Assembly: GCF_024195295.1 (NCBI RefSeq)
Contig: NZ_JAMFTH010000008.1
Span: 1 to 64,000 of the forward strand
Length of the DNA: 64,000 bases
Origin: Gilvimarinus xylanilyticus
Lineage (GTDB): Bacteria > Pseudomonadota > Gammaproteobacteria > Pseudomonadales > Cellvibrionaceae
Direction: 5' to 3'
Shown here: one piece after another, positions 11,095 through 62,207 of the stretch
Position numbering within the stretch: the stretch's first letter is position 1
How the letters are laid out: every line of letters begins with the position of its first letter
Notes under the pieces: model-generated
What the model was told of the DNA's origin: nothing
Databases searched by the model: none
The model's input: only the letters and a program-made list of their open reading frames with translations
Position numbers and translations under genes: made by a program

Positions 11095-11106
11095 GCTGAA
11101 ACATCT

Positions 11107-12453: not shown

Positions 12454-12467
12454 AATCAGAAGTATTC

Positions 12468-14330: not shown

Positions 14331-14331
14331 G

Positions 14332-15309: not shown

Positions 15310-15429
15310 GGGGCCATATAATACAACTGTGAGAATCCTAGTCAGTTTTTCATGCTTTCCTCGCCCCCTTTCGGGCCGTATTGGTTAGAAAGATTTAGGC
15401 GTATTTTTATTATCAAAAGGAGAACAAAG

Positions 15430-15696: not shown

Positions 15697-15713
15697 TTCC
15701 ACGAGGTAAGTCA

Positions 15714-43691: not shown

Positions 43692-43993
43692 CAATGTGCG
43701 TGGATGCGCAAGCGTTGCGGGAGGCAGGGTACCGGGAGCGACGCAGGACGTAGTCCTCGACAACGTGTAAGGGATAGCGCTGGACCAACAAATAAGGCCG
43801 AACCCAGAGGGTTCAGCCTTTCTTTTAATATGGTGCCCAGGACGATGCGCAGGGATGCGCAAGTGTCGCGGGAGGCAGGATGCCGGGAGCGACGCAGGAC
43901 GTAGTCCTCGACGACGTTAAGGGATAGCGCCGGACCAACAAAAAAAGGCTGAACCCAGAGGATTCAGCCTTTCTTTTAATATGGTGCCCAGGA
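43692..43993. repeat. Two tandem 151-bp repeats ending in the tRNA-Leu terminus
   Basis: Units 43692-43842 and 43843-43993 align at a constant offset of 151 bp with roughly 10% difference. Each contains GGATGCGCAAG, the self-complementary AGGACGTAGTCCT, a terminator hairpin (AAGGC(T/C)GAA / TTCAGCCTT), and ends in TGGTGCCCAGGA, the last 12 nt of a tRNA on the minus strand. A tandem duplication spanning the tRNA 3' end and its terminator explains it most simply. Confidence 0.88.
43938..43972 (-). terminator. Former tRNA-Leu terminator (minus strand)
   Basis: Minus-strand stem AAAGGCTGAA / TTCAGCCTTT followed by a T-run, 10 bp beyond the CCA end of the tRNA fragment. A diverged copy sits at 43794-43820. 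Confidence 0.75.
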
Positions 43994-44037
43994 GAGGACT
44001 TGAACCTCCACGGCCGTGAGGCCTAGCACCTGAAGCT
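43982..44037 (-). other. attL: 3' fragment of a tRNA-Leu(CAG) gene at the island boundary
   Basis: The minus strand reads from the anticodon stem through TTCAGGT (anticodon CAG), the long variable arm, the T-arm GGTTCAAGTCC, and ends CTGGGCACCA with encoded CCA. The 5' half of the tRNA is absent: homology stops in the 5' strand of the anticodon stem and AT-rich island sequence begins. This is the footprint left by a tyrosine recombinase using the anticodon-loop crossover. The intact tRNA should be at the far end of the island, outside the window. It is not a functional tRNA. Confidence 0.88.
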
Positions 44038-44101
44038 AATAATATACATGCTCAAAAGCTGTATATTAAGTTGCATAAATGGTTAAAAAGATCTCTAAGT
44101 G

Positions 44102-44167: not shown

Positions 44168-45730
44168 TTGCCGAAATCGACATCTGCCGGAAATAATGTC
44201 CCAGAGATGGGCGCAAATTATAACTCGGATTTGAGGATTATTGAGACACCGGACGAGCTCTTGCGGTTGGCCGGAATAAGCTCGCGTTCGGAGTTTGCAG
44301 GTGTCTACATGGATGAGGTGCTGCGACTCAGTCTAGGCGGTAGTCCTTATTTGGAATATCCCGACTCTGCCCATTGGGTGGCGATACAAAAACATGCCCA
44401 GAGATACCTACTTGAGTTTCCAGTCACTGTTCGGCCAGCCCCCCAAGGGTCGCAGGCTAATCCGGTAAGTGGCCAATTTAAAGAGCGCGAGCTACTGGGG
44501 TGTATATTGCAGCCGTCCTCAGCTGCTGACCGAGATAAATTCGATGGGCTCAAGGTGCTGATTATTCGCTATGCGCTCTCGACGCAAGCCCCCAATTCCA
44601 GTTTGTTTGAATCCTGTGCAGAGGTACGTAAGGGGCTAAAACTTAACCCGCCTCACAGGCGAGAAGTTTTTGAAAGGCTTCCTTCGTTCATGGAGCAGGA
44701 TTATATAGGTCGGTTGTCTGAAGTTCTGCGCAACGAAGCATCGCGCCCTAGTCTGAATGAGACAAAAAAACGGTATATCCGAGCTTTAGGGCGACTTGTG
44801 GGGCTGAGCCTCTGCGAAGTTAGGCCCCGAAAAACAACCGTTATAAAAAATAGAATAACAAGTCCCTCGCCAACACGACCTCTGGTGCGTCCCGTGAGAT
44901 CTACCATGGCAGACCCTGAACTAGCGGTGGAGGGGCTTTATGAAGTTCTCGAGCCGCTTCATGAGGGTTTTGATGCCAGTGGCGAGCCAGAGGTGAGTAC
45001 GGTCTTCGAGCAAGTGGTTGATCAGACAGAGTTTGGTTTTGATGTCGAGCTGCAACAAAAAAGGCGAAAATCAGCGTATTGGTTGGAGCAATCAACGTTG
45101 GTGTCTGCAGTCAACCGGGGAGTGTTGGTTCCCCCTGAGTGCCGGAGACTCACAGAGGTACTTAAAAGCTGTTTAGCGTCTCAAGATCAACTCCTAGAGT
45201 TTTGTGGTGGCCTGCTCTCATTAAGCTATTTAACGTCGAGTTCTTTGGCTCAGCTGTTACGAGACTGGGCGGGGAATGAGGTTACCGTGGCAGGAGAGTT
45301 TGTTCGGGTTTTTCCTGAAACGGACATTGCTGGCATAGTTGTTCACGGATTGGCGGCGGGGCCTAAGGAGGTTTGCCGGTCAATACACCTGTCTTTGCCG
45401 TCAGAGCTGGAACGCTGGTTGAGCCGCCATGTTAGTCCAGAAGGCCAGTTATCAATGCCCGCGGGGTTTGAGTCTGAGAGCCTAATTCTCGAAAAATGTC
45501 GGAGCATTTTGTCAAGCGCTAGAGATAGCGGTCGATTTAACCTTACGGAATCGCGCGTACGGCATTCGCTGAGAAAGCAGCTGTCGCTCTCGCCCCTAGG
45601 GGCTCTGGCTGTTTATCTCCTCACGGGAGGCGTAGAGGAGAGACCGCCTGTTCTGATTCATTATGTGTCTGTGGACTCCATGCAGCTACTTGAGTGCTAC
45701 CGCGAGGCGCGTGAGGAGCTCTGGCCGTGA
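44168..45730 (+). CDS. Unknown protein of the island recombinase module
   Basis: 520 residues, TTG start behind AAGGAGG. No signal peptide, no membrane helix. Basic segments (about 195-245) and a late leucine-rich part are visible, but no complete tyrosine-recombinase R-HxxR-Y set and no HTH I can be sure of. It overlaps the large recombinase gene by four bases (GTGA), so the two proteins are made together; a role as recombination partner or target-site factor is inferred. Sequence is richer in A/T-ending codons than the chromosome to the left. Confidence 0.7.
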   Translation: MPKSTSAGNNVPEMGANYNSDLRIIETPDELLRLAGISSRSEFAGVYMDEVLRLSLGGSPYLEYPDSAHWVAIQKHAQRYLLEFPVTVRPAPQGSQANPVSGQFKERELLGCILQPSSAADRDKFDGLKVLIIRYALSTQAPNSSLFESCAEVRKGLKLNPPHRREVFERLPSFMEQDYIGRLSEVLRNEASRPSLNETKKRYIRALGRLVGLSLCEVRPRKTTVIKNRITSPSPTRPLVRPVRSTMADPELAVEGLYEVLEPLHEGFDASGEPEVSTVFEQVVDQTEFGFDVELQQKRRKSAYWLEQSTLVSAVNRGVLVPPECRRLTEVLKSCLASQDQLLEFCGGLLSLSYLTSSSLAQLLRDWAGNEVTVAGEFVRVFPETDIAGIVVHGLAAGPKEVCRSIHLSLPSELERWLSRHVSPEGQLSMPAGFESESLILEKCRSILSSARDSGRFNLTESRVRHSLRKQLSLSPLGALAVYLLTGGVEERPPVLIHYVSVDSMQLLECYREAREELWP

Positions 45731-48700
45731 GCGAGGATAAAAGCTGGGTATCCCCTAAAGAGGCAGCGTCACAGTTGGCGGCGGGCTTAAAGTCAGAACT
45801 CGCATCAGTAAACCGGAGAGACTTAGTTAAATACCACAATGCCTACACAGAGTATGTGGTGTCTCTATTGATGTTTGCTTCTGGTCATCGCCCGGTCGAT
45901 GATGTGTTTTGCTACAGGGCTCAGTTGGACGAAAAGGCTGGTCTAGTCATTATAGATGACAAGGCCACGAATGAAGCAAGGCGCTACAGGGTAGCGTACC
46001 TGCCCGATGTTGCGTGCGAGCAGCTTCGATATTACCTGGATCACCTCGCGCAGGTGGTTAATTACCTACGGCCCAGGCGTAATAAAGAATTGAGGACTGC
46101 TCTCGAGAGCAGCTTGTCAGGCAGTTTCGCATCAGCACTACCATTTTTCTTCTATCTGACTAAGGATGGCGTAGCGGGGGTGGGCTATGAGGCGCTAAGC
46201 CGAATTTCCAGTCGTTATTCCCACGCTCCTCCCAATATTAATCGTAAATGGCTGGCTACCGAGCTCGTCAGTAGGAATGCCCCTGCTTGGTTGGTCGCCT
46301 CTTGTATGGGGCATATGGAAACTGCAGTCCTACCGAACGGCCGTTTCTGCCGGGAGTCACAGCTAGAGATACGTGCGGCCGTGTCTGAGCGACTTAATCC
46401 AGCATTGCTGTCCGCGGGGTGGACGGCAGTGACCAGCAAGTTTCGTCCCCAATATGGTTGGGATGACGGTCTTCCAGACTTTATCGATGTAGGGCGTGAG
46501 CTGGGCCCAGAGCTGCGGTTCAAATGGCGAGATAGCAAGCGCAGAGAGGCCAAATCGATTATCAGAGAGACTGTCAGCTCACTAGAGCGTGAGGGGCAGA
46601 GCTTTTATTCCTCTGAGGCTAAAATGCAGAACCTCAGGGACCAGTTAATTGAAACACTAAAGGCCAAAAGCGTACCCCTAAAATACGCCTTTGAGCTATT
46701 TGCGAGGTATTTAGCGAAGAGGTCCAGAGATAACCCCCAAATTACTAACTTGATCTGGAGTCGCTCAGAGCGTTTGGAGCCCTCAGTTTGGGGGCGGCGA
46801 GACTTGCAGAGATACCAGGTGGCAGCATCTCATCGTCAAAAATTGTTTGAGTTACTGGAGGAGCGAGCAAAACAGCGTAAAGATTTAAGTTATGAAGAAT
46901 CTCTTGCTTTTCGCATTTTTACTCTAGCTTTCATGTCGGGGTTGTCAACCGTTAATGTTTTTGAGGCGGCTCAGGCTAATCAATGTACTCTAATACAAGT
47001 AAAGAATAATTTTTTATTAAAAATATCCACAGAACGCAGTGAGGATTTGAATGCAATCCCGATTGATGCCTACTCGGCAGCACTCTCCAGGATGCTATTG
47101 TCAAGCGCCCACAGTAACGGTACGTCTGGACGTCTTGAGCTGTTGCGAGTTGCCAGGCATTTAGGGCTTGCCCATCAGAACTTAAAACAATTGTTCGCAA
47201 GCTTGTCTCGCGATGTATTAGCCATTTCACGGCTGGAATCCTCTGGACCTATACATGCTGTGGCGGTGGGCTTGCTAAAACAAACAGCAATCGACTTAAA
47301 GGTTTTGACTCGATTGCTTTATCGAAAGCCACTGGATAGCTCTTTTGAACTTGAGGCTAATGTGGTTTCAGGGCCAGAAATCCAACTTAGCTCACGTGAA
47401 TGCACTGATCCCATAAAATCAATATCCAGTTTTATTGTTACGCTTCGAGAGGCCATGAGTCGTGATTCAATTGATGGATATATTCGCGACAATAAAAATT
47501 CGGAACGAATTGTGGGCTCATCGCTCTCTTTAAAAGAGGAGCGAGCGTACCTGTCCCGTCACATAAAAAAATATTTGAAACAGTATTCACTTCCTGCGCT
47601 AGGGCAGTTGATCGGGTATTGGGGTGCTTGGCTGTGCGAAAATAAAACACGCTATAAGAACGCTATTCAGGCAAAAACAATAGTGGAATACGTCAGCCTT
47701 ATTGCCAAAAGTCTCCGAAGCTCGGCAGGTGATCTTGTGCTGCAGTATGACCAAGATGAGTGGGCGCAGGCTTATCTTGGTGCCATAGAGGGTTCTACTA
47801 TAGGCGGGATGAGCTCTCTGGCTTCCAGGTTGTACGACTTCCATGTTTATCTTATGGAGAATTGGAATGCTCCGGAAATCGTTTGGGACGATATTTTTGC
47901 GACGGCTGGAAGTAAAAATATAGCTTCACGGGTCGATGTCAATATAGTTACCTTTGATGAATATCAGTCGGCGGTCGAGTTCTTAGTCAAGCATCACGCG
48001 AATAACTACGAATTTAGATTTTCCGCTTGGTTGCTTTTTTTAGGTTTTAGATTTGGTTTGAGGTGGTCAGAGGCATATTACCTTACCGAACGAGACCTAA
48101 TTGTGGACACGTCCGCAGGCTTGTATGTTCGGGTGTGTGAAAATAGCCGTCGTCGATTAAAAACACCTAGCGCTACTAGAATAATACCCCTCATCGGTAG
48201 TTTGTCTGGGGTTGAAAAGTCTCTTGTGGATTCAATGCTTTCGACGGTCGAGTCGACAGGGGAGAGCGGTGAGGCGGGCTCTAGGCTGTTATGTATGGAT
48301 CCCGCGCGAAATGTTCTTATAGATGAATTCCGTATAGGTAAAATCGTCAACTCTGTATTAAAGCAAGCGTCGGGTGACAGTCGATTGCGGTTTCACCATC
48401 TGCGTCATGGCTATGCGAGTCGATTGATGGTGTTGACTGAGAGTGGTGAATCGACAGCTGACAGTATTGCTCGTGCTCTATTGGAGCCTCTCGACCCTGC
48501 TGATCTGGCTGGCATCTCAAAAAATCAATCTCTGCAGGGGGTGCTTAGTCTTCGCGCTATCAGTGATCTTTTGGGGCATGCGGATATGGCCACTACCTTG
48601 CATAGTTATGTACATGTTTTTGATTTGGGAAAGGATCGAACTTCCTTTCCATTGGAACCAGCTCCTAGTGATCGCCTTATGGCACTTGTGTTAGGAAGGA

Positions 48701-49500
48701 GTGAATCTGCTGTGCGTAAGAAGAGGCAGCGTTCACAGGTGGAGCGAGAGGCCAGTGCCGTACAAAGGTGGATGATGCTGGAGCTTGGAGAGGATGGCAC
48801 TCCTGTGTATCCAGTACAGGGCGCTAGATCTTTTCAGATTGTCGTTCCTGACACTCGCGTTCAGCAGAGTATTTTATTTGGGGTCAGGCATCGAATTCTC
48901 GTGAGATACTCAATGTATCGGGAGGAGTTCAGTCTCTTGGCAAGGCGCACCGGAGTGGATACTGATGTTGTGCGTGCCGTCATAAAGGCGGGCGTTAAAA
49001 TGGAGCGGGTTTCGGGGTATGAACGCTTCTCGCTAAATTCAGGTCTGGCGCTAGCCTCCGATGGTGAATTCCGTAATATGACGGAGTGGCAAAATATAGA
49101 TAAAGCTCTGAATAAAATCAATTCTATTGATGGTGGGGTAGTTGAGCGCGCAGTTTTGTCGTGGGCTGGTTCATATCATACATCAAGTACAAGCTACTTC
49201 TTTTATGATTTTGAAGATCTAATATGCTTTTTAAGATGTTTGATGGCTCTTGATATGGTGATTGAACGGGCCAGTTTCCGGGTTATAGGTCGAGTGGATC
49301 GCGATAGTCAAACAATTGAGCATTTGAAGGGATTGGGTGTGATAGAGGAATCGGTTCGGCCTCGTTATCATCGTTTAGGAAAAGGCACAAAAACGAGAAA
49401 GCGGTCTATCTGTCTGAATCTCAAGCGCGTAGGCGGATCCCTCTCCACAAAAAAACAAATTAACAGACTGTTTTTTGTAATTTCTTCATCCATGAATTAA
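45727..49500 (+). CDS. Large tyrosine recombinase (island integrase) with a degenerate N-terminal recombinase-like domain
   Basis: 1257 residues. The active site is in the second half: Arg779 in GLRWSEAYY, HHLRHG with His890 and Arg893, GH at 950-951 and nucleophile Tyr961 in HADMATTLHSYVHV. About 300 residues follow the Tyr, unusual for integrases. Residues 33-210 look like a second, decayed catalytic fold: SGHRPVDDV (Arg55), INRKW (Arg173) and CMGHMETA (His196) but no Tyr nucleophile. Next to attL, it is the obvious integrase of the island. Start GTG overlaps the preceding gene. Confidence 0.85.
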   Translation: MSEDKSWVSPKEAASQLAAGLKSELASVNRRDLVKYHNAYTEYVVSLLMFASGHRPVDDVFCYRAQLDEKAGLVIIDDKATNEARRYRVAYLPDVACEQLRYYLDHLAQVVNYLRPRRNKELRTALESSLSGSFASALPFFFYLTKDGVAGVGYEALSRISSRYSHAPPNINRKWLATELVSRNAPAWLVASCMGHMETAVLPNGRFCRESQLEIRAAVSERLNPALLSAGWTAVTSKFRPQYGWDDGLPDFIDVGRELGPELRFKWRDSKRREAKSIIRETVSSLEREGQSFYSSEAKMQNLRDQLIETLKAKSVPLKYAFELFARYLAKRSRDNPQITNLIWSRSERLEPSVWGRRDLQRYQVAASHRQKLFELLEERAKQRKDLSYEESLAFRIFTLAFMSGLSTVNVFEAAQANQCTLIQVKNNFLLKISTERSEDLNAIPIDAYSAALSRMLLSSAHSNGTSGRLELLRVARHLGLAHQNLKQLFASLSRDVLAISRLESSGPIHAVAVGLLKQTAIDLKVLTRLLYRKPLDSSFELEANVVSGPEIQLSSRECTDPIKSISSFIVTLREAMSRDSIDGYIRDNKNSERIVGSSLSLKEERAYLSRHIKKYLKQYSLPALGQLIGYWGAWLCENKTRYKNAIQAKTIVEYVSLIAKSLRSSAGDLVLQYDQDEWAQAYLGAIEGSTIGGMSSLASRLYDFHVYLMENWNAPEIVWDDIFATAGSKNIASRVDVNIVTFDEYQSAVEFLVKHHANNYEFRFSAWLLFLGFRFGLRWSEAYYLTERDLIVDTSAGLYVRVCENSRRRLKTPSATRIIPLIGSLSGVEKSLVDSMLSTVESTGESGEAGSRLLCMDPARNVLIDEFRIGKIVNSVLKQASGDSRLRFHHLRHGYASRLMVLTESGESTADSIARALLEPLDPADLAGISKNQSLQGVLSLRAISDLLGHADMATTLHSYVHVFDLGKDRTSFPLEPAPSDRLMALVLGRSESAVRKKRQRSQVEREASAVQRWMMLELGEDGTPVYPVQGARSFQIVVPDTRVQQSILFGVRHRILVRYSMYREEFSLLARRTGVDTDVVRAVIKAGVKMERVSGYERFSLNSGLALASDGEFRNMTEWQNIDKALNKINSIDGGVVERAVLSWAGSYHTSSTSYFFYDFEDLICFLRCLMALDMVIERASFRVIGRVDRDSQTIEHLKGLGVIEESVRPRYHRLGKGTKTRKRSICLNLKRVGGSLSTKKQINRLFFVISSSMN

Positions 49501-49715
49501 AAGATCATGGTTGTATCATCATAGATGACCCTTGTTTTCCTCGTAAATTTCACTCTCGAATACCATGTTAACGGCATAATCAATAATTTTCTTAACTGAT
49601 ATGTCTATATCGCCATGATGGTCATGCCTCTATAGTCATAGAGCCAAAAAATGCACGATAATTAGAAGGTTGAATAATGCCTCCCCCTTTGGTATTAACT
49701 GTTTGAACGGTTGTT

Positions 49716-50534
49716 ATGCTGCATCTTGTTATCGGTGAGGGTAGGGTGGTGAATCAAATAATTGTTAAAATTTATGGCGGCAATGAAGAAGATGATGAGC
49801 TCGGTCTGTTGAGTGGGAAGCATCGGTTGTTACAAGAGATGGCAAAGAAAATTTTACAGGATCTAGGTTTGTCTGATTACCCAACTGCATCCGCATTTTC
49901 TATATGTAGCGAAGGTGGAGTCAGTCTCGAGCTGAAGAGGAGCGATCTTTCAAAACTGCTTTATGGCGCAGGGCTATTTGATAGCGACGGGGATCGTGCT
50001 CAGTTTATGAATGCTGTGATTGAGTCTGTTTTGGATAAGTTGCGTCGACCAGTGTCCGAGTCGAAAATTGGTAGAGATATTAGAAAGATAATTTCTAGTC
50101 ACGAGCGGGATATTGAAGTTGAAGCTGAATTTCTGGGTGATCCGCATGTTATTCATATTCCTATGATCTCTCCAGTGCTAGAGTCTCATGCTCGGGAAAC
50201 GGGAATCTATAGAGTCGATTCTGTTTCGAGTACAAAGTCTCGGTGCGTTCTTATCAACTGCAATGGATGGGGTGAAATATCAGCTACGTTTGATCCGACT
50301 GGATCTTTAAGGCAATCATTGGATAGGGCTCGCGCTGAGTTGAGATATGCAGAGCTCGTAGGAACTAGTGTGTATGTAGGAAATAAACGAAAGAGCTCGA
50401 GCTTTGTTGTGAAGGAGATTGTTCGATTATTTGATGAGAAAGAGTTTTTGGAGTTAATATCCGCTGGTGATTTTGATGAATATTTTTCGATTGAAGAATT
50501 ATATAGCAAGCCACTTCCGCTAAGGTTTAAATGA
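49716..50534 (+). CDS. Unknown island protein
   Basis: 272 residues, soluble, charged, AT-rich codon use (many AAT, GAT, ATT). No known motif seen; the C-terminal part has alternating charged strands and FVVKEIVRLFDEKEFLELI. 215 bp after the recombinase, possibly with its own promoter. ATG at 49716 has no clear Shine-Dalgarno; GTG at 49746 or 49749, after GAGGGTAGG, may be the true start. It could be a third element of the integration module or an unrelated cargo gene. Confidence 0.6.
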   Translation: MLHLVIGEGRVVNQIIVKIYGGNEEDDELGLLSGKHRLLQEMAKKILQDLGLSDYPTASAFSICSEGGVSLELKRSDLSKLLYGAGLFDSDGDRAQFMNAVIESVLDKLRRPVSESKIGRDIRKIISSHERDIEVEAEFLGDPHVIHIPMISPVLESHARETGIYRVDSVSSTKSRCVLINCNGWGEISATFDPTGSLRQSLDRARAELRYAELVGTSVYVGNKRKSSSFVVKEIVRLFDEKEFLELISAGDFDEYFSIEELYSKPLPLRFK

Positions 50535-50732: not shown

Positions 50733-51402
50733 CCTTTGCGCTTGCTTACCGGTCACGGCGTGGACACCAAGTTTTTTGAGCGTAACGGCAGGCTTTTAGT
50801 GCGATTGCTGGATGAGCGCATTTGACAATGCCGCCAGTGAGCAGGGCCTGACAACTTTTCTGGACGCTTTAGACCAGAGCGATCACTGGGTGTTGATAGC
50901 GCCACTGTCCGAGGCTCTTTTGCCCTTCAAGCGCCTGAGGCTGACCACCTCAGAGCTGGCCCAAACGGCCTTGCCCGGTGCACAGGTGTTGATTGTCGAA
51001 AACGAACGTTGCCTGCACCTGTTGCCCGACCTGCCCGACACGGTCGCCATCCTGGGCGCCGGGCTGGACTTGCAGTGGTTGAGTGCTCCTCAGTGGAGGG
51101 AAAAGAAACTGGGTTACTGGGGCGATATGGATACCTGGGGGCTTCTGATGCTCGCCCGGGCCCGGAGCTACTGCCCGGGGTTAACGCCACTGCTGATGAG
51201 TCGGTCGCTGTTTGACCAGTATGCCGCTGGCAGCGCAGTGCCTGAGCCCGTTACCGCTCAGTCGACAGCACCGGATGGCTTGACCGACAAAGAGGCGAGT
51301 TTTTACTGCTACCTATTGAGTCAGGAGCGAGGGCGATTAGAGCAAGAATACTTACCCCAGAATGCGGTAGAGCGTGCGCTGCGCGCTTGGTTAAAGGCGT
51401 AA
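50733..51402 (+). pseudogene. jetD: Remnant of Wadjet jetD (DUF3322/DUF2220), truncated and frameshifted
   Basis: The surviving part covers the end of the DUF3322 region (LRLLTGHGVDTKFFERN) and the Toprim-like DUF2220 domain: VLIVENE, YWGDMDTWGLLMLARAR, and LLMSRSLF, then LSQERGRLEQEYLPQNAVERAL. The first ~200 residues of a normal JetD are missing. Within GATGAGCGCATTTGACAAT the frame shifts: one frame ends after DERI, the other continues FDNAASEQ, so two bases seem gained or one lost. No jetA, jetB or jetC is present. A dead relic of an anti-plasmid system. Confidence 0.82.
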
Positions 51403-51611: not shown

Positions 51612-52091
51612 ATGGTCAATCAAAACCCCGAACAGCGAGCGCGGGACCGCATCGACCGGCAGCTTGAGCAGGCCGGCTGGGTCGTCCAAGGCAAAAACGC
51701 CATCGACTTCAGCGCCGGGCGCGGCATAGCGGTGCGCGAGTACCAGACCGACGTCGGCCCTGCCGATTACGTGCTGTTTGTCGACAAAGTGGCCGTGGGC
51801 GTCATTGAAGCCAAACCCGAGGATTGGGGCCACAAAATCACCACTGTGGAGCTGCAATCCCAGGCCTACGCCGCTGCCAACCTGAAGTGGGTCAACAAAG
51901 GCGGCCCTCTGCCCTATGTGTACGAGAGCACGGGCGTAATCACCCGCTTCACCAATGGCCAGGACCCCAGTCCGCGCTCCCGTGAAGTGTTCAACTTTCA
52001 CCGCCCGGACAGCTTGTATCGAACAATTCGAAAGACAGTGCACGTAGTACAATACAAGCCCATGATCCAAAAAGTGAACGCTTACAGGTAG
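51612..52091 (+). pseudogene. hsdR: Truncated type I restriction subunit HsdR (N-terminal nuclease domain only)
   Basis: 159 residues. Keeps the HsdR N-terminal domain with the PD-(D/E)xK core (ADYVLF, GVIEAKPE) and the conserved PYVYESTGVITRFTN and VFNFHRPDSL, where the helicase should follow. Instead it ends after an unrelated tail (VHVVQYKPMIQKVNAYR). Full-length proteins have 750-1000 residues. AAGGTGA precedes the ATG. With hsdM 8.6 kb downstream on the same strand, this may be the other half of one system split by cargo. Confidence 0.83.
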
Positions 52092-52279
52092 CCAGTAGAA
52101 TCGAGATCTAGCTGTGCGCACAGCAAAGATGAAGGGGTAGTTGGAGGCCATTTGTTTTCGCTCTCCCGCTAGAGCGATCAGTTGATAACCCTGTGTGACC
52201 CGTTAGAGCGAAGATTGGAAACGAGTTAGAGGGGGCGGGAAGTTCTTGTTGTAACCATTATTAATGTGTGAGAGGGAAT

Positions 52280-52864
52280 ATGAATAATACCCGACGAAAA
52301 ATTGACCTTTATCTGCTTTCTCTAGGCTTGCTTTTCGTCTTCTTTCTAGTGATTTCAGCTAAGCTTCCAGAATCATCTTTTTCCTACAGGGAATTAGCTT
52401 CGTGGAAGCTTCTAGCAGCAAATAACCCTTTGCCAATTGTTTCAATGTTGGCGCTACTGTATTGCTTTTGGGCTTACCTTCGCTTTGACTTTGAGTTGAG
52501 CGGAGCGACGGACATACCATTTGAGATTACCAAAATCGAAGACATAAATTATGAGCACCTGACATTCCTAGCAACTTATGTTGTACCGCTAATCAGCTTC
52601 GACTTTGGTAGCGGTAGACAAATGATTGTACTAGCTCTTCTTTTGGTGGTTATGGGGTTTATCTACATAAAAACGGATCTCTTTTACGCCAATCCATCGT
52701 TAGCACTTCTCGGTTTTCACATCTACAGAGCCAGCGGAAGTTTCAAGAATGGTGAGCGTGACGGGATTGTTTTGATTTGTCGAAGCAGGTTAGTAGAAAA
52801 TCAAAAAGTTTCTTACATAAAGTTGGATGAACGAATTTACTATGTAAAGGGTGCAAAAGTATGA
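52280..52864 (+). CDS. kwaA: Kiwa anti-phage protein KwaA (membrane sensor)
   Basis: 194 residues, four hydrophobic helices (about 10-31, 48-66, 100-116, 117-135) and a short cytoplasmic tail. The segment DIPFEITKIEDINYEHLTFLATYVVPLI is the part I recognise from KwaA. KwaA is the inner-membrane partner that senses phage infection and works with KwaB. The gene overlaps kwaB by four bases (ATGA). ATG at 52280 follows GAGAGG. Confidence 0.82.
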   Translation: MNNTRRKIDLYLLSLGLLFVFFLVISAKLPESSFSYRELASWKLLAANNPLPIVSMLALLYCFWAYLRFDFELSGATDIPFEITKIEDINYEHLTFLATYVVPLISFDFGSGRQMIVLALLLVVMGFIYIKTDLFYANPSLALLGFHIYRASGSFKNGERDGIVLICRSRLVENQKVSYIKLDERIYYVKGAKV

Positions 52865-53841
52865 ATGTAGCTGATCTCAAGGCGTCCTTACAGGCGTTTT
52901 ATGATGAATACGACGATATCGGCGTTTCTGTGTATGCCATTCTCAAGGATCAGGATAATACTGCCCCGGTCAAACTGGATATTGAAGCCGATGCCCTGGG
53001 TGGCCTAAAAGCACTCTTTATTCAAAGCCTGCGCGACAATATATCTGACCGGGATGAGTTGCCTTTGCTCAACCTTTCATCCTCGGATGAGCGTCTCGAT
53101 GCAGTCTATGTGTATGACCTTGAAATTCCCGAGGAGTTGGCTGCACTGGAAACCGTCATTGCTCAGGACAATCTGCCTTTGCTTGATTTGAACGATCAGA
53201 GTCTTTCCTCCATCAAGGCGCTGTTGATCGAGATCGGTAACAATGTGGGCCAGATGGTGCTGTACAAAACCATGGCCCCCGTCAATATCTTTGGCAGAAT
53301 GAGCTTTTTTCTGAAAAAAGCGGCCACCCGGCTTGAGAAAATCAATGACGAATTTCTCCGGGTGAGCGCCGGGTTTCAGATGCTCAGAATCAACGGCTCT
53401 CTGTTGGTGATTGATCTTGAGACACTGGAAAGAAGTTTTGGCTTTCACGATGTCATTAAAAAAGAAGCGGCGCTGGGAGTCACCGCTATTGAGTCCATCA
53501 GCCTTATCGAGAATCCGGAAGTGCTTCATGAGCTGCTGGATGATGTCAAATATGCGAGAAGGCTGACGAAGATCGCGAGGTCATCTCCTGTGCTGAAAGC
53601 AGGCGTTTCCAATGAGAACATCCTCAGGTTTTGCCAGACCTTTCCAAATCTATCCGGGAGAATTCGATTTAATGAAGGGCAGGACAAAATAGTCCTAGAC
53701 ACCAAGGTTTCTCAGGATCTGCTCATCAAGCTATTGATGGATGACTTTCTTACCTCGGAACTCACGAACTTGCACTATGCCAGTGTGGCAAAAGACAGTG
53801 TGGATGAGGAAGAGCCGCAAGGCGATCTGCAAGGGAACTGA
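52861..53841 (+). CDS. kwaB: Kiwa anti-phage protein KwaB (DUF4868)
   Basis: 326 residues, no signal or membrane helix. Central VGQMVLYKTMAPVNIFGR and the following LRINGSLLVIDLETLERSFGFHDVIKKEA match the DUF4868 family pattern; length fits (about 315). KwaB is the DNA-binding effector of Kiwa that blocks phage replication or transcription. Translationally coupled to kwaA. Some of the sequence is GC-richer than kwaA, so the pair may have mixed ancestry or strong recombination. Confidence 0.85.
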   Translation: MNVADLKASLQAFYDEYDDIGVSVYAILKDQDNTAPVKLDIEADALGGLKALFIQSLRDNISDRDELPLLNLSSSDERLDAVYVYDLEIPEELAALETVIAQDNLPLLDLNDQSLSSIKALLIEIGNNVGQMVLYKTMAPVNIFGRMSFFLKKAATRLEKINDEFLRVSAGFQMLRINGSLLVIDLETLERSFGFHDVIKKEAALGVTAIESISLIENPEVLHELLDDVKYARRLTKIARSSPVLKAGVSNENILRFCQTFPNLSGRIRFNEGQDKIVLDTKVSQDLLIKLLMDDFLTSELTNLHYASVAKDSVDEEEPQGDLQGN

Positions 53842-53889
53842 CGGCATCGGAACCGTCTATTCATAACCTGAGGAGCGTGGCAAAAAAGC

Positions 53890-56800
53890 ATGAGCCATTT
53901 CAACGAAACTGCCCTCGAGCTATCGCAGGTTACGGACGCAGGATTATTTGAGCATCTTGCCGCAGCAGTGCTTCGCGAAGCTCGCTCCGATCTATATAAC
54001 AACCTGACCCAGCCAGGAACGAACGCGGAAGGTAAACCTGTTAAATCGCCAGTTGATGCCATTTCGTTTGTCCCAAATGCTGATCCACGGCACATGGTGG
54101 CAGTCCATCATACAACCTGCAAACAAGCCGATCTCAGGAAGAAGTGGCTCCTCGATCCAACGACGGTTAAGACACCGAAGGGCGGCAAATCCACGGCGCA
54201 ACCCGGTGACTTGGTCAAAACTGTTTCTATCGTTGTAGAGGAGCGAAATAAGTCACCCGACCTACACGTGACGCTGGCTCTGACCACAAATGAGGAGCCG
54301 CCGGAAGATGTGACCCGCGAAGCCGAGCACATGGCAGCCTCCCACCAAATTACGCTCGATATCTGGTCCCGTTCTCGTATTGCCGAATTCCTTGATAACA
54401 ACCCGAACGGGCAATGGCTCCGAAGGAAATATCTTGGCATTATTCAGGAAAAGCTATCCTACGACCTGCTGAGGGAACTGGGGCGGAAAAGTCTTACAGC
54501 TCATCAATCGCCAGACAGAGAGCAGGAGCAGATAGCGCGGGCCAGCGCCGATACAGTAATTCAGAATCTGCCCGTTCCCATTGGGTTTCTTGCCGGAGAG
54601 TCCGGATTCGGAAAAAGCGTTGCATGCTACCGACATCTGGCACGCCACCTTGCCCTGGGCGGCTGCTGTTTGGTCCTCCCTCATGAAGTTCTGGCAACTT
54701 CAATAACGTTGGACCAAGCCATTGATGCCACGCTACGTCAGCTTCACCCCACTCTTGCTGAAGGGGCGGGCTCACAAGCACGCACTTTGTGCTCCGCAGA
54801 CTTACCTCTTCTAATAACAGTAGAGGACATCTCTAGGTCTGGGCAAAGCTCGGTACTAATCGAGCGGCTAGCAAAATGGTCTGCGAGTATAAAAACCAGC
54901 GATCAGCGTCCAAATTGGCGCATCATGTGCCCAATATGGCCTGAGCTGCTCAGCGGCCTTGGAGACGATACTCGCAAGCGGATTGAGCCACTAACTCGCC
55001 GATTAAACACCTTTACCCCTCAAGAAGCTCGCACAGCCATCTTAAAACGCGCAGCCCGTGCAAACATTGAACTGTCAGAACTTGATGCCGATTCAATCGC
55101 TGAAGCTCTTGGCTGCGATCCCCTGTTGATCGGCCTGCACGATCTAAATTCCACAACAGCGCCAACCAACGTGATTTCAACTTTTGTCTCCCAAAGCACC
55201 GAGCGCGTTTCTCAAACAGGGGCGTATATGGCAAATGAGTACCGAGCCTCCCTTCTCGCCTTTGCGAGGGCGATGTTGAAGCAAAAACAAATGGCTCCCA
55301 AATGGGACGATGTACTCTCTTGGTTTAGCAATTCGACTGACCTGCTAGCATCATTGCGAGAGCAGACGAAATACGGTGAAGTGATCCGCCTTACAAATTC
55401 CAACCAAGACTCACAAATCGTATTCCGGCATGATCGCGTCCGAAAGTGGCTTCTGGTGGACGCCGCAGCTTCTGCCATAAAAAACAACGACCTTGAAGAG
55501 GATATATTCTCAGACCCCTATTTTGCGGATATAATCGGAGCCGCGTTGGCAGATGCGGCCACGCCAGTGTCTGTCGTAGAGCTGGCTCGCGAACTGAATC
55601 CTCTTGCACTCTTCTACGCCTTACAGTCTTTTCGAGCACCGTCATTTCCTTCACATGATGCGACAATCAAAGCCATAGACCGGTGGCTGACGGAAAAAGA
55701 ATCTCATTCGTGTACCTACCAATCCCTGAGGCATGCTGCACTTGGAGTGCTATCTGAAACGAAATCATCCTATGTTCTCAAAATCCTGCCTAATTTTAAG
55801 GATCGTTCGTGGTCTGCAAATATCGCTGGTTTACGAAATGGGGATTTGAAATCCGGCGTAAAATTATGCGCTTCGATAGAGCCAGGCTCTGGAGCGCTGT
55901 GGCGAGATCGGGCGATAGAGCATGCAAAACTTAATTTTGGCCCAAATCTCACAAAAAAGCTGGAAGCGCTTCTCGAAAATCCTCAAACTAAAGATACGGG
56001 TATCGTGGGAGGACTTCGATTGGCGGGTCATCTAGCCGATACCTCCTTGGCTCCGGCTATTGAAGCCTGCTGGAACTCCGACGTCCAGAGGGCGAAACAT
56101 TTAGATGACTACCTCTGGGCCGCTGCGCAGTGCGGAGGAGATCAAACAGAAAAGTTGCTCTCACCAATTTGCGATGCATGGGCAGAGCTGCCAGACGACC
56201 CAGAAAGTAACGGCATGCCCTCGCCCCGGAACTCACTCGCTGCCCACCATGTTGCCTGGGCATTTTGGCGGTCTCTGCCCAAACCGGCTTTGAGATTCTT
56301 TATAAAACGCGCCTCTGACGATGATTTGCGCTGGCCCGTCATATATATGCTCCACGGCATGGATCACCCGGAAGCTGTTACTTTCCTTGTGGGCTACATG
56401 GCCGAAAGATCGAGAGAATTGGAAGGAACTAATGGTTTCGATATCTTTCAGAGCACAGTGAAGGATCACTGGAGACGTTGGCAAAGAGAGCGAAATAGTA
56501 CGATGTCCAAGCAATCCCGTGTGCGACTTCAGGAAATTTGGACAAGTGAAGTTCACGACAAACATTTGCGAAAGCACGCATTCGGGCTATGGGCCTCGAC
56601 AATTGCTCCTGAAGATACCCAGCTCCTTAGGTCTCAGAAGGACTCTGGCGAGCTAGCAGACAGCATACTCCGAGCACGACTGGAGCGATCAGATCAAACC
56701 GCGATACCAGCATTTATCGAGAAGCTCCTAACTGACGATGACCAACATGGTAGCTGGTGGCAATCAGCACGGCATATCTGGTCTGATTCCCTAACTGCCA

Positions 56801-57576
56801 CACTCCATGAATATCTGGATCGGCTGGAAAAGTCTACAAGTCCGACCTGGGGAGACTCCCAGCAATCCGCATGGATTATTTCTGAGTTGATCATGGAGCA
56901 AGAAACTTCAGTGCTTGAAGACATTCTGCTCAAGCACTGGGAATTTATGAGATTCTCGCCAAATTATGTACAAGCCGCCTTTTATGCAGCTACACCGCGC
57001 TTGTTGACCCTAGTAGATGAGACGATCCGAGAGTGCCCCGCTCCAGAAGATATGTTTAAGCATATCGACATGCATTATGGGATCAAAACTACGGGACGCG
57101 CAGGAGTAACACGTATTGACCAGATTCAAGCGCTCATTCCTTATCTTGATTACCTTTCGGAGTCTTCAATCCATCAATTCTGGGAAGTATGTAATGAGAG
57201 AGGATGGATAAGACTGCGCCGTGAATATCTCGACTCACGCTTGGGAGAATGGAAAGAGCGGGTTGGCCTGAATGATTTGCATTTACTTGCCGAACTCGAC
57301 AAGGAACTCACATATGACAGGCCACATTGGCTTGATCACTGGGTTGATCGTCATCTCGACCATGGGCGTAGCAGAGAGAATATTCTCGCGATCCTCAAGC
57401 AGTGGCTTCGCTCGAACAAGTCTAGGAAAGCACTCCAAATTGCTGCTTCTATAATTATTCACGCGGGTACACGTAGGGATATTGAGATATTGAACGCAGG
57501 TGGCGACCAGTCCGGTGGAGCAGCAGCACTGATTGCTGATACTCGTTTTGAAATCATGCGGCGTACGTTGGCGTAA
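53890..57576 (+). CDS. Large P-loop NTPase with N-terminal nuclease-like domain (candidate STAND-type defence protein)
   Basis: 1228 residues. N-terminal region (1-170) looks like a Mrr-type nuclease fold start (FEHLAAAVLREA, then SPVDAISF and HMVAVHHTTC), but lacks a standard (D/E)xK. Walker A GESGFGKS at 236-243 and Walker B LLITVEDI at 307-314 define a NACHT/STAND-like NTPase; a winged-helix-like segment follows to about 560. The C-terminal ~650 residues look like helical (HEAT/TPR-like) repeats, the usual sensor of Avs proteins. It starts 48 bp after kwaB with GAGGAG upstream. No named system matched from memory. Confidence 0.72.
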   Translation: MSHFNETALELSQVTDAGLFEHLAAAVLREARSDLYNNLTQPGTNAEGKPVKSPVDAISFVPNADPRHMVAVHHTTCKQADLRKKWLLDPTTVKTPKGGKSTAQPGDLVKTVSIVVEERNKSPDLHVTLALTTNEEPPEDVTREAEHMAASHQITLDIWSRSRIAEFLDNNPNGQWLRRKYLGIIQEKLSYDLLRELGRKSLTAHQSPDREQEQIARASADTVIQNLPVPIGFLAGESGFGKSVACYRHLARHLALGGCCLVLPHEVLATSITLDQAIDATLRQLHPTLAEGAGSQARTLCSADLPLLITVEDISRSGQSSVLIERLAKWSASIKTSDQRPNWRIMCPIWPELLSGLGDDTRKRIEPLTRRLNTFTPQEARTAILKRAARANIELSELDADSIAEALGCDPLLIGLHDLNSTTAPTNVISTFVSQSTERVSQTGAYMANEYRASLLAFARAMLKQKQMAPKWDDVLSWFSNSTDLLASLREQTKYGEVIRLTNSNQDSQIVFRHDRVRKWLLVDAAASAIKNNDLEEDIFSDPYFADIIGAALADAATPVSVVELARELNPLALFYALQSFRAPSFPSHDATIKAIDRWLTEKESHSCTYQSLRHAALGVLSETKSSYVLKILPNFKDRSWSANIAGLRNGDLKSGVKLCASIEPGSGALWRDRAIEHAKLNFGPNLTKKLEALLENPQTKDTGIVGGLRLAGHLADTSLAPAIEACWNSDVQRAKHLDDYLWAAAQCGGDQTEKLLSPICDAWAELPDDPESNGMPSPRNSLAAHHVAWAFWRSLPKPALRFFIKRASDDDLRWPVIYMLHGMDHPEAVTFLVGYMAERSRELEGTNGFDIFQSTVKDHWRRWQRERNSTMSKQSRVRLQEIWTSEVHDKHLRKHAFGLWASTIAPEDTQLLRSQKDSGELADSILRARLERSDQTAIPAFIEKLLTDDDQHGSWWQSARHIWSDSLTATLHEYLDRLEKSTSPTWGDSQQSAWIISELIMEQETSVLEDILLKHWEFMRFSPNYVQAAFYAATPRLLTLVDETIRECPAPEDMFKHIDMHYGIKTTGRAGVTRIDQIQALIPYLDYLSESSIHQFWEVCNERGWIRLRREYLDSRLGEWKERVGLNDLHLLAELDKELTYDRPHWLDHWVDRHLDHGRSRENILAILKQWLRSNKSRKALQIAASIIIHAGTRRDIEILNAGGDQSGGAAALIADTRFEIMRRTLA

Positions 57577-57832: not shown

Positions 57833-58327
57833 ATGATCGAAGTAACAAAAAATCTTTTTGTCGGTGATCAGTTGGCTTATGAAAGTAAAGTACGATTTTC
57901 CGAAGGTTGGTGTGTAGTCCATGCCTGTAAGGAACCCTATCATAGACAGGCGCTCGGCTATACGGGGCGCGGTGCGCCCAAAAGCCATCCTGAATATTTG
58001 GTAGCCACTAGGGATAATCGTTTGATTTTGAACATGGTTGATGTTGATAATCCAGCATATATCCCGAAGGAAATCATAGATGCTGCGCTGTTGTTTATCG
58101 ACCAAAGCTTGAGCGCTGGAAAACAGGTACTTGTGCATTGCAATCAAGGGATGAGTCGTTCTGCTGGTATTACTTTGCTATTTCTCGCTAAGCAAGGACT
58201 TATAGCACAAAGCAGCTTTGTGGAGGCTGAACAACAATTCAAGGCTTTATATCCCCCATGCGATATGGCAATGGGCATTCGGGGCTTTTTGGTGAAGAAC
58301 TGGGATAGCTATATCCAGGCTAAATGA
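57833..58327 (+). CDS. Dual-specificity/tyrosine phosphatase-like protein
   Basis: 164 residues. The phosphatase loop is HCNQGMSRS with Cys103 and Arg109, and Asp70 or Asp72 in NMVDVDNP as general acid, so the catalytic set C(x5)R plus Asp is complete. It would hydrolyse phosphoester bonds on proteins, nucleotides or RNA caps. AGAGG precedes the ATG by 9 nt. Within a defence cluster it could act as a control or effector phosphatase, but no kinase is seen nearby. Confidence 0.85.
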   Translation: MIEVTKNLFVGDQLAYESKVRFSEGWCVVHACKEPYHRQALGYTGRGAPKSHPEYLVATRDNRLILNMVDVDNPAYIPKEIIDAALLFIDQSLSAGKQVLVHCNQGMSRSAGITLLFLAKQGLIAQSSFVEAEQQFKALYPPCDMAMGIRGFLVKNWDSYIQAK

Positions 58328-58456
58328 GCGAATAAGCAAGTGTGAGACTCAAACAAAAGTATGACGATAATTCTGAAAGACACTTGGGGGCACCAAAATA
58401 TCAACGCCCTAATCGCCGCAGGAAGGTGTGTCGGATGATTAGATGCGCGGGTGCAT

Positions 58457-58864
58457 ATGTCTGCAACTCTTAGTTGGCTGGACCTCACTTCCTCGGACCG
58501 CGAAAAATTTCGTGGCATTCTGGACCTGTTCAGCGAACAAGGTACGGTTGATGAGCTCGGGTTAGGCAGTCTGCGTGATGCCTTTTCCGATGCCTTGTTC
58601 CCCGGCACGTCGGTGCTGCATACGCGTTTGCGGTACGTCTTGTTCGTGCCCTGGCTGTATCAAGCTTTGGAACACCGAGGCGCCGGTGGTGATGTGGTTG
58701 ATGCCGCTCGCAAAAAAGAAGTGGAATTGATAGACCATTTGGCGGCTACCGGGGAGGACGGGGTCATCGGTGTTCAGGCGCGAGCCTCCTTGGTGCGGTT
58801 GCCCAGTAGCGTGTATTGGTTTGCGTTGTCGCGCTGGGGGACTTGCGTGCACCAGCAAGAATAG
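58457..58864 (+). pseudogene. Truncated DUF6361-like protein
   Basis: 135 residues with the start of the DUF6361 family: LSWLDLTSSDREK, the TVDELGLGSLRDAFSDALFPGTS block and LRYVLFVPWLYQALE, ending SSVYWFALSRWGTC then stop. Full-length proteins have about 390 residues. The rest is missing: the next 160 bp hold an AT-rich promoter-like stretch instead. Such genes occur in defence islands; function unknown. Confidence 0.75.
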
Positions 58865-59025: not shown

Positions 59026-59796
59026 ATGACCAAGCCACATCCCAATCTAAGCGAATGGTTACCGTTAGGCCAATTGGCTACTCGCCAATGGCTGCTAGAA
59101 CGAGGCGTCTCCCGCCATTCACTGGATAATGCCCTCAAATCCGGCAAGCTGGTTGCCGTAGCTCGGGGTGTTGTGGCGCGGCCAGAGATCCCCCTGGGCT
59201 GGCAGGGAGTAGTAGCTTCGCTGGACAGGATATTGCCTTCGGCTGTCTATGTCGGTGGCTTGTCGGCCTTGAATCAGCATGGTCTGGGCCATTACGTCAA
59301 CTTTGATTCACAGATGCACCTATACTCCGCCGCTGCGCAGCCGAGCTGGCTGCCCAAGTTGAAGTTAAACGTAGAGCTCTTCTGGCACAGTACGGTGCGT
59401 TTATGGGATGAACGTGGGCTACAGATGGCCAAAAGCTTGCGGGAGCAAACGGCTGAGGCGGGTTGGTCTTGGCGGCTGGCTTCGCCAGAGCAGGCATTTT
59501 TTGAGATGCTGGCCGGAGTGCCGAGTGAGGTGAGTTTTGAGCATGCGGACAACCTGATGCAGGGGCTCAGCTCGCTCTCCCCCCGGCGATTGGATGCCCT
59601 GTTACGCGCCTGTCGCCACGTGCAGGTCAAACGCTTGTTTTTCTTCTTTGCCGATCGTCATCAATACCCCTGGCGCAAGCACCTTTCCGCGGAGAGCTAT
59701 GACCTTGGCGTTGGCAAGCGCAGCATAGTGCCCGGTGGCAAGTTGGATCAAACCTACCTTATTACGGTGCCGGAGTCATTTCATGGATCGGAATAA
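59026..59796 (+). CDS. abiEi: Type IV toxin-antitoxin antitoxin (AbiEi family)
   Basis: 256 residues. N-terminal winged helix (LPLGQLATRQWLLERGVSRHSLDNALKSGKLVAVARGV) and C-terminal antitoxin domain with YVGGLSALNQHGLGHYV. It binds its own promoter and opposes the AbiEii toxin without direct contact. Upstream, inverted and AT-rich sequence at 58935-58975 may be its operator. Its end overlaps the toxin gene by 14 bp, as usual. Confidence 0.88.
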   Translation: MTKPHPNLSEWLPLGQLATRQWLLERGVSRHSLDNALKSGKLVAVARGVVARPEIPLGWQGVVASLDRILPSAVYVGGLSALNQHGLGHYVNFDSQMHLYSAAAQPSWLPKLKLNVELFWHSTVRLWDERGLQMAKSLREQTAEAGWSWRLASPEQAFFEMLAGVPSEVSFEHADNLMQGLSSLSPRRLDALLRACRHVQVKRLFFFFADRHQYPWRKHLSAESYDLGVGKRSIVPGGKLDQTYLITVPESFHGSE

Positions 59797-60703
59797 TCCT
59801 TATTACCGGCAGGTGCAACTGCTTGTTCGAGTGCTGCCTTTTGTATTTGAGCAGGAGTGTTTTGCGCTCAAGGGCGGTACCGCCATTAACTTATTTGTTC
59901 GGGATCTCCCGCGACTCTCGGTAGACATTGATTTGGTCTACCTGGGCGGTGGCGATCGACAGTCAGCGCTGCCTGCAATTCATCAAGCCCTGAATCGCGT
60001 TGCTGCGGCCATTGAGCAGGCGCTCCGAGGGACTTCAGTCAAAAAGAGTTATGAACAAAAGCCAGACGCCTTGCGCCTGGTTGTTGGCCACAAAGGCGTG
60101 TCGATTAAGGTGGAGCTGTCACCCGTACTGCGTGGCGTGCTCCATACACCACAAGTCCGACCCGTAGTGGAGTCGGTTGAGGAGCAGTTTGGGTTTGCAG
60201 AAGCGCCAGTGGTGGATTTTGCGGATTTGTATGCGGGGAAGATCTGCGCAGCACTGGACCGGCAGCACCCAAGGGACTTTTTCGATGTGCTGTTGCTTCT
60301 CGAAAATGAGGGCATTGGTGATAGTCTCCGCAAGGCTTTTTTAGTCTATTTGGTGAGTCATGCCAGACCGATGGAAGAATTGCTTGAACCGCGCTGGGGG
60401 CCTTTGCAAACAACGTTTGAAAATGAATTTAAAGGCATGGCGTTCAGACAAGTGAACGTTAAGGATCTTGAGGCGGCGGGAAGCCAGGCCCTGCATACAG
60501 TACTCTCCACTCTGACAGACCAGGAAAAGCAGTTTTTAATGAGTCTATACCAGCGCTCTGCGAATTGGGCGGCGTTGGGATTGGAAGGCGCGAGCAACCT
60601 TCCTGCGGTGCAGTGGAAGTTGAACAATATTGCCAGGATGCCGGACAGCAAGCGAGAGGCCTCACTGGCCGAGTTGCGTCGGGTATTGGGTATAAACGAG
60701 TAA
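59783..60703 (+). CDS. abiEii: Type IV toxin nucleotidyltransferase (AbiEii/DUF1814)
   Basis: 306 residues. Nucleotidyltransferase core FALKGGTAINLF, the catalytic SVDIDLVY (DxD), and DLYAGKICAALDRQHPRDFFDV. AbiEii toxins transfer nucleotides to tRNA ends or similar targets and cause phage-triggered abortive infection. ATG at 59783 inside the antitoxin's last codons; the longer frame upstream overlaps abiEi. Confidence 0.9.
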   Translation: MDRNNPYYRQVQLLVRVLPFVFEQECFALKGGTAINLFVRDLPRLSVDIDLVYLGGGDRQSALPAIHQALNRVAAAIEQALRGTSVKKSYEQKPDALRLVVGHKGVSIKVELSPVLRGVLHTPQVRPVVESVEEQFGFAEAPVVDFADLYAGKICAALDRQHPRDFFDVLLLLENEGIGDSLRKAFLVYLVSHARPMEELLEPRWGPLQTTFENEFKGMAFRQVNVKDLEAAGSQALHTVLSTLTDQEKQFLMSLYQRSANWAALGLEGASNLPAVQWKLNNIARMPDSKREASLAELRRVLGINE

Positions 60704-60719: not shown

Positions 60720-62207
60720 ATGAGCCCTACGGCCCCAATTATCTCCAAAGTCTGGAGCTTCTGTACCACGCTGCGCGATGATGGCGTGGGTTACGGTGAC
60801 TACCTGGAGCAACTGACGTATCTGATCTTTCTGAAAATGGCGGACGAGTACGCTGCACCGCCCCATAACCGTGACGTGGGCATACCCAAAAAGTATTCCT
60901 GGTCCACGTTAAAACGAAAAACCGGGTCGGAGTTGGAAGTCAGCTATTACGAGTTATTGCAGGCCCTGGGTAAAAAGAAGGGTATGTTGGGGCAAATATT
61001 TACCAAAGCCCAGAACAAGATCCAGGACCCCGCCAAACTCGCTCGCCTGATCGCGATGGTGGATAGCACCCAGTGGACCGTGATGGACGCCGATGTTAAA
61101 GGGGATATCTACGAAGGTTTGCTGGAAAAGAATGCTGAAGATACTAAGTCGGGCGCGGGCCAGTATTTTACGCCTCGTGCTTTGATTCGCGCTATGGTGG
61201 ACTGCGTGCGGCCTGAGCCGAAGAAAACGATTGCCGATCCGGCTTGCGGTACCGGCGGTTTCTTTTTGGCGGCCTATGATTTTCTTACCAACCCGGAAAA
61301 CTACAAGCTGGACAAGGCTCAAAAGACCTTTCTTAAGCACAACACCTTTTACGGCAATGAAATCGTCGCCAACACCCGCCGTATGTGTTTGATGAACATG
61401 TTCCTGCACAATATTGGTGAGATCGACGGTGAGAGCCTGGTATTCCCCAATGACGCCCTGGTAGCGCAGAGTCCTCAGACCTTTGACTATGTATTAGCCA
61501 ACCCGCCCTTCGGGAAAAAGAGCTCCATGAGCTTTACCAATGAGGAAGGTGAGCAGGAAACAGACGAGCTGACCTACAACCGCCAGGATTTTTGGGCCAC
61601 GACGTCAAACAAGCAGCTTAATTTTGTGCAACATATTCGCACCATGCTGAAAACCACAGGTAAGGCGGCTGTGGTAGTGCCGGATAACGTACTGTTCGAA
61701 GGCGGTGCGGGTGAAACTATTCGCAAGAGGTTGTTGCAAGAAACTGATCTACATACCATTTTGCGCTTGCCTACCGGGATCTTCTATGCCCACGGCGTAA
61801 AGGCAAATGTGCTGTTTTTTGATAACCGCGAAGCCAGCCCCAAGGCCTGGACCAAGAGCGTCTGGTATTACGACTACCGCACCAATGTTCACCACACCCT
61901 GAAGAAAAAGCCATTACGCTATGAGGATCTAGCGGAGTTCATCAAGTGCTATAAGCCCGAGAATCGTCACAAGCGTCGTTCTACTTGGCACCCTGAGAAA
62001 AAACCGGACGGACGCTGGCGCAAGTACTCCTATGAGGAGCTCACTGCCCGCGATAAAACCAGCCTGGATGTGTTCTGGCTAAAAGACAAAAGCCTGACGG
62101 ATCTGGATAATCTGCCCGAGCCCGACGAGCTGGCAGAGGAAATTATCGAGAACCTGGAGGCAGGGTTAGATAGCTTCCGAAAGGTGCTAGCCGAACTTGG
62201 AACTTAA
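60720..62207 (+). CDS. hsdM: Type I restriction-modification N6-adenine methyltransferase HsdM (orphan)
   Basis: 495 residues. Helical N-terminal HsdM_N domain (about 10-140), SAM-binding motif DPACGTGGFF and catalytic NPPFG. Complete C-terminus, with an AAGGAG start signal. Normally followed by hsdS, which supplies the target specificity; here the next 1.3 kb is a repeat array and no S subunit is visible, so methylation needs a subunit in trans. Possibly originally one operon with the truncated hsdR at 51.6 kb; the AbiE pair may have been inserted. Confidence 0.9.
   Translation: MSPTAPIISKVWSFCTTLRDDGVGYGDYLEQLTYLIFLKMADEYAAPPHNRDVGIPKKYSWSTLKRKTGSELEVSYYELLQALGKKKGMLGQIFTKAQNKIQDPAKLARLIAMVDSTQWTVMDADVKGDIYEGLLEKNAEDTKSGAGQYFTPRALIRAMVDCVRPEPKKTIADPACGTGGFFLAAYDFLTNPENYKLDKAQKTFLKHNTFYGNEIVANTRRMCLMNMFLHNIGEIDGESLVFPNDALVAQSPQTFDYVLANPPFGKKSSMSFTNEEGEQETDELTYNRQDFWATTSNKQLNFVQHIRTMLKTTGKAAVVVPDNVLFEGGAGETIRKRLLQETDLHTILRLPTGIFYAHGVKANVLFFDNREASPKAWTKSVWYYDYRTNVHHTLKKKPLRYEDLAEFIKCYKPENRHKRRSTWHPEKKPDGRWRKYSYEELTARDKTSLDVFWLKDKSLTDLDNLPEPDELAEEIIENLEAGLDSFRKVLAELGT

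Follow-up and report, generated by a model that had tools for sequence, protein, structure and literature searches.

STAND/NLR-like proteins of the Avs and bNACHT types carry an N-terminal effector-like domain, a STAND-type ATPase and a helical-repeat C terminus, and Avs proteins have TPR repeats at their C terminus. In the Kiwa system, according to the consulted part of a review, infection is detected by KwaA at the membrane, and the injected DNA is bound but not cut by KwaB. Unrelated defense genes can also be lodged between hsd genes: in the portions of two studies available to us, TgvAB and DarTG2 are placed in type I restriction-modification (R-M) loci (PMC11411939, PMC12255303), and the hsdS-hsdR gap is called a potential recombination hotspot (PMC12255303).

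We analyzed a window of 64,000 nucleotides from Gilvimarinus xylanilyticus (the whole stretch of DNA, to which all coordinates refer unless another contig or locus is named), in which a kwaA-kwaB pair is followed by a large NTPase gene. We consider it quite likely that these are two complete, independent anti-phage modules that adjoin each other within a single cargo block, namely, Kiwa and a single-gene STAND/NLR-like NTPase; two separate modules are the most likely reading since their relatives were not found together elsewhere.

A kwaA-kwaB pair is followed by a large NTPase gene

The kwaA gene (52280..52864, plus strand) encodes a KwaA-family protein (NCBIfam NF041622, E = 1e-68, above the cut-off; PADLOC KwaA, E = 2.5e-78). 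Directly after it, kwaB (52861..53841, plus strand) encodes a protein of the KwaB (DUF4868) family (NCBIfam NF041623, E = 1.7e-110, above the cut-off; PADLOC KwaB, E = 3.6e-125; Pfam PF16162, E = 3e-45). The identities that a preliminary description had given to the two genes are thus borne out by NCBIfam and PADLOC for both and by Pfam for KwaB. The same description had stated that kwaA and kwaB overlap by ATGA and that a large P-loop gene starts 48 bp later in the same direction; the ORF coordinates agree, with the end of kwaA and the start of kwaB sharing ATGA at 52861-52864 and a 1,228-aa ORF beginning at 53890 on the plus strand. The start of kwaA is an ATG, and a GTG further upstream at 52268 is also open in the ORF list. 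With both genes present, in the same order, overlapping and strongly matching both curated families, the pair is like described Kiwa, and the kwaA/kwaB overlap is annotated likewise in Emticicia. Indeed, nothing in kwaAB itself is different; the only difference is the extra gene 48 bp downstream, which was not found beside other Kiwa loci.

The 188-bp leader upstream of kwaA contains two near-identical 13-nt direct repeats (CCCGYTAGAGCGA) located 34 bp apart (52165..52211, plus strand), which may possibly serve as an operator. In the 48-bp gap between kwaB and the NTPase gene (53842..53889, plus strand), neither a sigma-70-like promoter nor a terminator was seen, in a scan that overall yielded no more sites than shuffled sequence. 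Because no promoter-like site was seen in this chance-level scan, the NTPase may depend on the kwaA promoter. A same-strand gap of 48 bp in which no promoter is visible could also be that of an operon, and this speaks against independent modules. The G+C content is 0.40 for kwaA, 0.48 for kwaB and 0.51 for the NTPase gene; this difference is no proof of separate origin, and codon usage gave no clear separation of the Kiwa module from the NTPase module.

The NTPase belongs to a rare and scattered family

The 1,228-aa ORF (53890..57576, plus strand) is a real gene, since it aligns end to end with relatives from other phyla. Besides the window copy, we found 11 relatives, 10 of them end to end and one partial. 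They comprise sequences from Marinomonas (L003, 40%) and Leptolyngbya (L002, 42%, with an in-frame stop), seven plasmid-borne copies (Sphingomonas, two from Aliarcobacter, Pseudanabaena, Acinetobacter, Halalkalicoccus and Haloquadratum) and one copy in each of two genomes of the same phylum. The first of these (G555) is full length, and the second (G535) runs into the contig end after about 555 N-terminal residues (44% over 555 residues). Full-length relatives accompanied by no Kiwa occur in Pseudomonadota, Campylobacterota, cyanobacteria and haloarchaea.

The gene is rare. In the class sample it was present in 1 of 369 genomes, which is the source genome itself (single-sequence query), in the phylum sample in 3 of 398, in the sample of its own family in 1 of 144, and in the family of G535 in 1 of 74. 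These counts leave out three matches in the phylum sample (G578, G438 and G149) and two in the family sample (G869 and G765), which were set aside as generic ATPases because they span only about 50 to 110 columns. Neither the NTPase nor KwaB had a match in 50,697 phage records, and three viral-contig scans contained no relative of the NTPase; on these searches, a phage origin was set aside.

The window NTPase matched no PADLOC 2023 model (Avs included) and no NCBIfam 20.0 family at E <= 0.1, gave only a sub-threshold AAA_16 match in Pfam, and retrieved nothing credible in a PDB sequence search. Its relatives had weak family matches, such as DS8_antiphage for L009 (E = 0.024, far below the cut-off), and elsewhere matches restricted to single members; none of these was used. 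In the literature search, no entry consulted named this NTPase family or a Kiwa-NTPase pair.

A STAND/NLR-like domain plan is predicted

The protein contains a P-loop (GESGFGKS, 54595..54618, plus strand) whose lysine K242 is invariant in 9/9 sequences, and D313, at the Walker-B position by our reading of the alignment, is equally invariant (9/9). Structure models were built on three sequences. That of the first 580 residues was poor (pLDDT 58), and its Foldseek matches included Cdc6/Orc, NLRC4, NOD2, NAIP5 and Apaf-1, with Avs4 at rank 26; the best E values were 1.8e-4 (Cdc6) and 3.7e-4 (NLRC4), at TM-scores of just 0.16 to 0.26. Together with the P-loop and the Walker-B residue, these matches give moderate support to a STAND/NLR-type ATPase. 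The C-terminal 698 residues (55480..57573, plus strand) were modeled as an all-helical superhelix (pLDDT 72) whose nearest Foldseek neighbors were HEAT/ARM proteins, with low TM-scores. The predicted plan of an N-terminal effector-like domain, a STAND-type ATPase and a helical-repeat C terminus is that of Avs and bNACHT proteins. However, the window NTPase differs from Avs in matching none of the PADLOC Avs models (E <= 0.1) and in having a C terminus that resembles HEAT/ARM.

The N-terminal domain (53890..54444, plus strand; about 185 residues) may be a degenerate PD-(D/E)XK-like fold. Its predicted order of helices and strands is compatible with PD-(D/E)XK, and E21, D56 and K85 are invariant in 12/12 members. 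Position 73, where (D/E/Q)xK would be expected, is occupied by H (7), E (4) or A (1), followed by T75 in 11/12 members and by no lysine. None of the 12 members gave a convincing Pfam match for this domain. In a profile comparison with 18 Mrr domains (from 18 of 20 fetched Mrr loci), the alignment was co-linear and left the second motif unaligned, with a probability of 0.9% and an E value of 0.062; the score was 18.0, versus 9.6 to 16.4 for nine reversed or scrambled controls. This is not significant, and an assignment of the domain to the Mrr family was set aside. Because of this probability and of the unaligned second motif, a nuclease is something we only infer. The preliminary description had called the protein a nuclease-like/STAND-type NTPase: its P-loop and STAND-type part held up, on the P-loop and on Foldseek matches with low TM-scores, and its nuclease-like part is plausible and unproven.

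Kiwa and the NTPase were not found together elsewhere

The preliminary description had offered two readings, a combined three-gene Kiwa system or a second defense module nested at the same promoter, and had proposed to count how often NTPase homologs follow kwaAB. We ran a KwaB profile against the six-frame translations of the 12 NTPase loci. The window matched at E = 7e-88, and no convincing match was present in the 11 other loci, the best E values (0.085, 0.17 and 0.71) being at chance level. The flanks covered were 8 kb on each side for L002 and L003, about 12 kb on each side for L004 to L010, about 9.5 and 5.8 kb for L062, and the upstream side for L063.

Similarly, the NTPase profile matched none of the 16 other KwaB loci from genomes (best E values of 0.24 and 0.66, at chance level), and no such gene was annotated in the 2 KwaB loci on Emticicia plasmids. 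These 18 loci were drawn from 398 phylum genomes (12 loci), 144 family genomes (4 loci) and the Emticicia plasmids (2 loci); they include two below the Pfam cut-off (G544 and G856) and two with short KwaB frames (G365 and G378). The sequence covered behind kwaB was at least 4 kb long in 16 of the 18 and shorter in L059 and L080. With a sample this small, a true rate of as much as about 17% is still compatible with finding the NTPase in 0/16 of the loci that have sufficient sequence downstream. In these samples (11 + 18 loci), the NTPase was thus never near kwaAB elsewhere. As a regular Kiwa component it is not supported, the three-gene system was dropped on these neighborhood counts (0/11 NTPase loci with KwaB, 0/18 KwaB loci with the NTPase), and the reading as two modules side by side fits.

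The gap upstream of the NTPase gene measures 123 to 718 bp in 9 of the 11 other loci, so the 48 bp seen here are not typical, which counts against the two-module reading. The Acinetobacter relative lies 84 bp behind a urea carboxylase gene, and in G535 only 21 bp separate the relative from a PDC-S02/DUF1016 gene in front of it, a candidate defense gene other than Kiwa that itself follows a SoFic gene, so tight spacing is not specific to Kiwa. Proximity to an unrelated upstream gene is thus seen in some loci, though not in most. We regard as unlikely a three-part Kiwa variant in which KwaAB would keep injected phage DNA at the membrane for destruction by a recruited NTPase. Such a variant would agree with the short same-strand gap and its lack of a promoter-like site, and an added nuclease would make sense because KwaB, in the consulted part of the review, binds DNA without cutting it. 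However, the nuclease activity of the NTPase is putative only, its relatives adjoin unrelated genes, and co-occurrence was absent across all 11 NTPase loci and 18 KwaB loci.

Of the 12 NTPase loci, at least 5 have a defense-labeled gene nearby, namely, the window, L063, L004 (AbiEii), L005 (Shedu and Lit) and L006 (Shedu). Behind the G555 relative, at a distance of 9 bp, there is an 865-aa ORF (L062, 13220-15817) with no Pfam or PADLOC match. That the NTPase serves the maintenance or competition of plasmids and islands rather than phage defense, as its 7 plasmid records among 12 loci and the integrase or recombinase genes near L005, L006, L010 and L062 might suggest, is likewise unlikely, since the plasmid share is biased (plasmids being one of the few collections searched), the contigs that carry L002 and L003 measure 313 and 547 kb, and the STAND-plus-HEAT plan and the defense-gene neighbors suit immunity better.

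Both modules lie within a type I R-M locus

Kiwa and the NTPase are both contained in a 7-kb block situated between an N-terminal stump of hsdR (51612..52091, plus strand) and abiE-hsdM. Behind the NTPase, the block holds a dual-specificity-phosphatase-like gene (57833..58327, plus strand; Pfam DSPc, 2.7e-9) and a DUF6361 fragment (58451..58864, plus strand; Pfam, 4.9e-27, profile positions 3-129 of 388). These are followed by abiEi and abiEii (59026..60703, plus strand) and by hsdM (60720..62207, plus strand), whose product has 77 to 86% identity over 488 to 494 residues to HsdM of five same-family genomes. AbiEi, AbiEii and HsdM are apparently near full length. Upstream of the stump lies the C-terminal half of a Wadjet jetD gene (50812..51402; PADLOC profile 189-380 of 383). 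The JetD piece, the hsdR stump and the DUF6361 fragment confirm the preliminary description's statement that decayed defense genes flank the NTPase gene. Between the hsdR stump and hsdM, no hsdS was found in the ORF list or by family scans. The arrangement resembles the published TgvAB and DarTG2 loci in that defense genes are embedded between hsd genes. However, in the portions of those studies available to us the R-M genes are present, whereas here hsdR is a stump and hsdS was not found before hsdM.

DNA homology to the five same-family genomes (L064 to L068) breaks off at one and the same position of hsdR, 52009; it starts again at abiE in L067 and at hsdM in the other four. These four (L064, L065, L066 and L068) have hsdR-hsdS-hsdM with varying inserts after hsdS, L068 being the one with none. 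These inserts, not all of which are known defense genes, consist of an SMC-like ATPase gene and a Schlafen-type gene in L064, a Schlafen-type gene in two pieces in L065, and a nucleoid-protein (NA37) gene, two unknown genes and a Schlafen-type gene in L066. The order in L067 is a shortened hsdR (753 versus 937 to 946 aa), the defense gene Dsr1 (1,265 aa; region 8627-15847), a gene fragment, abiEi, abiEii and hsdM, abiE adjoining hsdM as in the window. The window parallels this order, with kwaAB, the NTPase, the phosphatase-like gene and the DUF6361 fragment in place of Dsr1.

At least 5 of the 16 KwaB loci from genomes also had R-M genes in the vicinity of kwaB, of type III in L050, of type I in L053, L056 and L057, and as a type IIG-like methylase in L081. 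In two of these loci, kwaAB is flanked by hsdS on one side and hsdR on the other (L056, 1504-13068; L057, 1056-9950).

The R-M locus is part of an island of about 72 kb, whose left end is marked by a copy of the tRNA-Leu 3' part (43982..44038) and whose other end is marked by the tRNA-Leu(CAG) gene itself (contig C12, 116060-116146). The copy matches C12 116060-116118 over 59 columns with no mismatch and one 2-base gap. Near the left island end (44168-50534), there are three same-strand ORFs of 520, 1,257 and 272 aa; the second has a phage-integrase domain (Pfam, 4.2e-9), and the other two have no Pfam match.

Proposed organization and function

In the organization that we propose, the cargo block would have replaced most of hsdR, together with hsdS, in the type I R-M locus of an island integrated at tRNA-Leu. 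Its first module is an ordinary Kiwa, whose KwaA and KwaB would need no partner and would operate at the membrane and on injected DNA, as this system has been described to do. The second, the single-gene NTPase, would be a self-contained sensor, switch and effector: the HEAT-like C terminus may sense a phage component, the STAND ATPase would switch and oligomerize, as expected from its class, and the N-terminal nuclease-like domain may then act on nucleic acid. The NTPase would possibly be transcribed from the kwaA promoter.

More tentatively, the NTPase may stand for an undescribed family of single-gene STAND/NLR immune proteins that proteobacteria, Campylobacterota, cyanobacteria and haloarchaea have in common. 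Its sensor would be HEAT-like and its effector a divergent PD-(D/E)XK-like domain missing the customary lysine motif, and in this island the gene would have been brought under the promoter of the Kiwa operon, at a site within a type I R-M locus where cargo is exchanged. We regard this fuller proposal as a real possibility rather than as the expected outcome.

Overall, these data remove a tempting but poorly supported inference of a three-gene Kiwa and illustrate that neighboring genes in a cargo site can look like one operon. They also point to a rare, widely scattered STAND-type candidate defense family that has no name in PADLOC 2023 and NCBIfam 20.0, and to a type I R-M locus in which the content of the stretch between hsdR and hsdM varies from one related genome to another.
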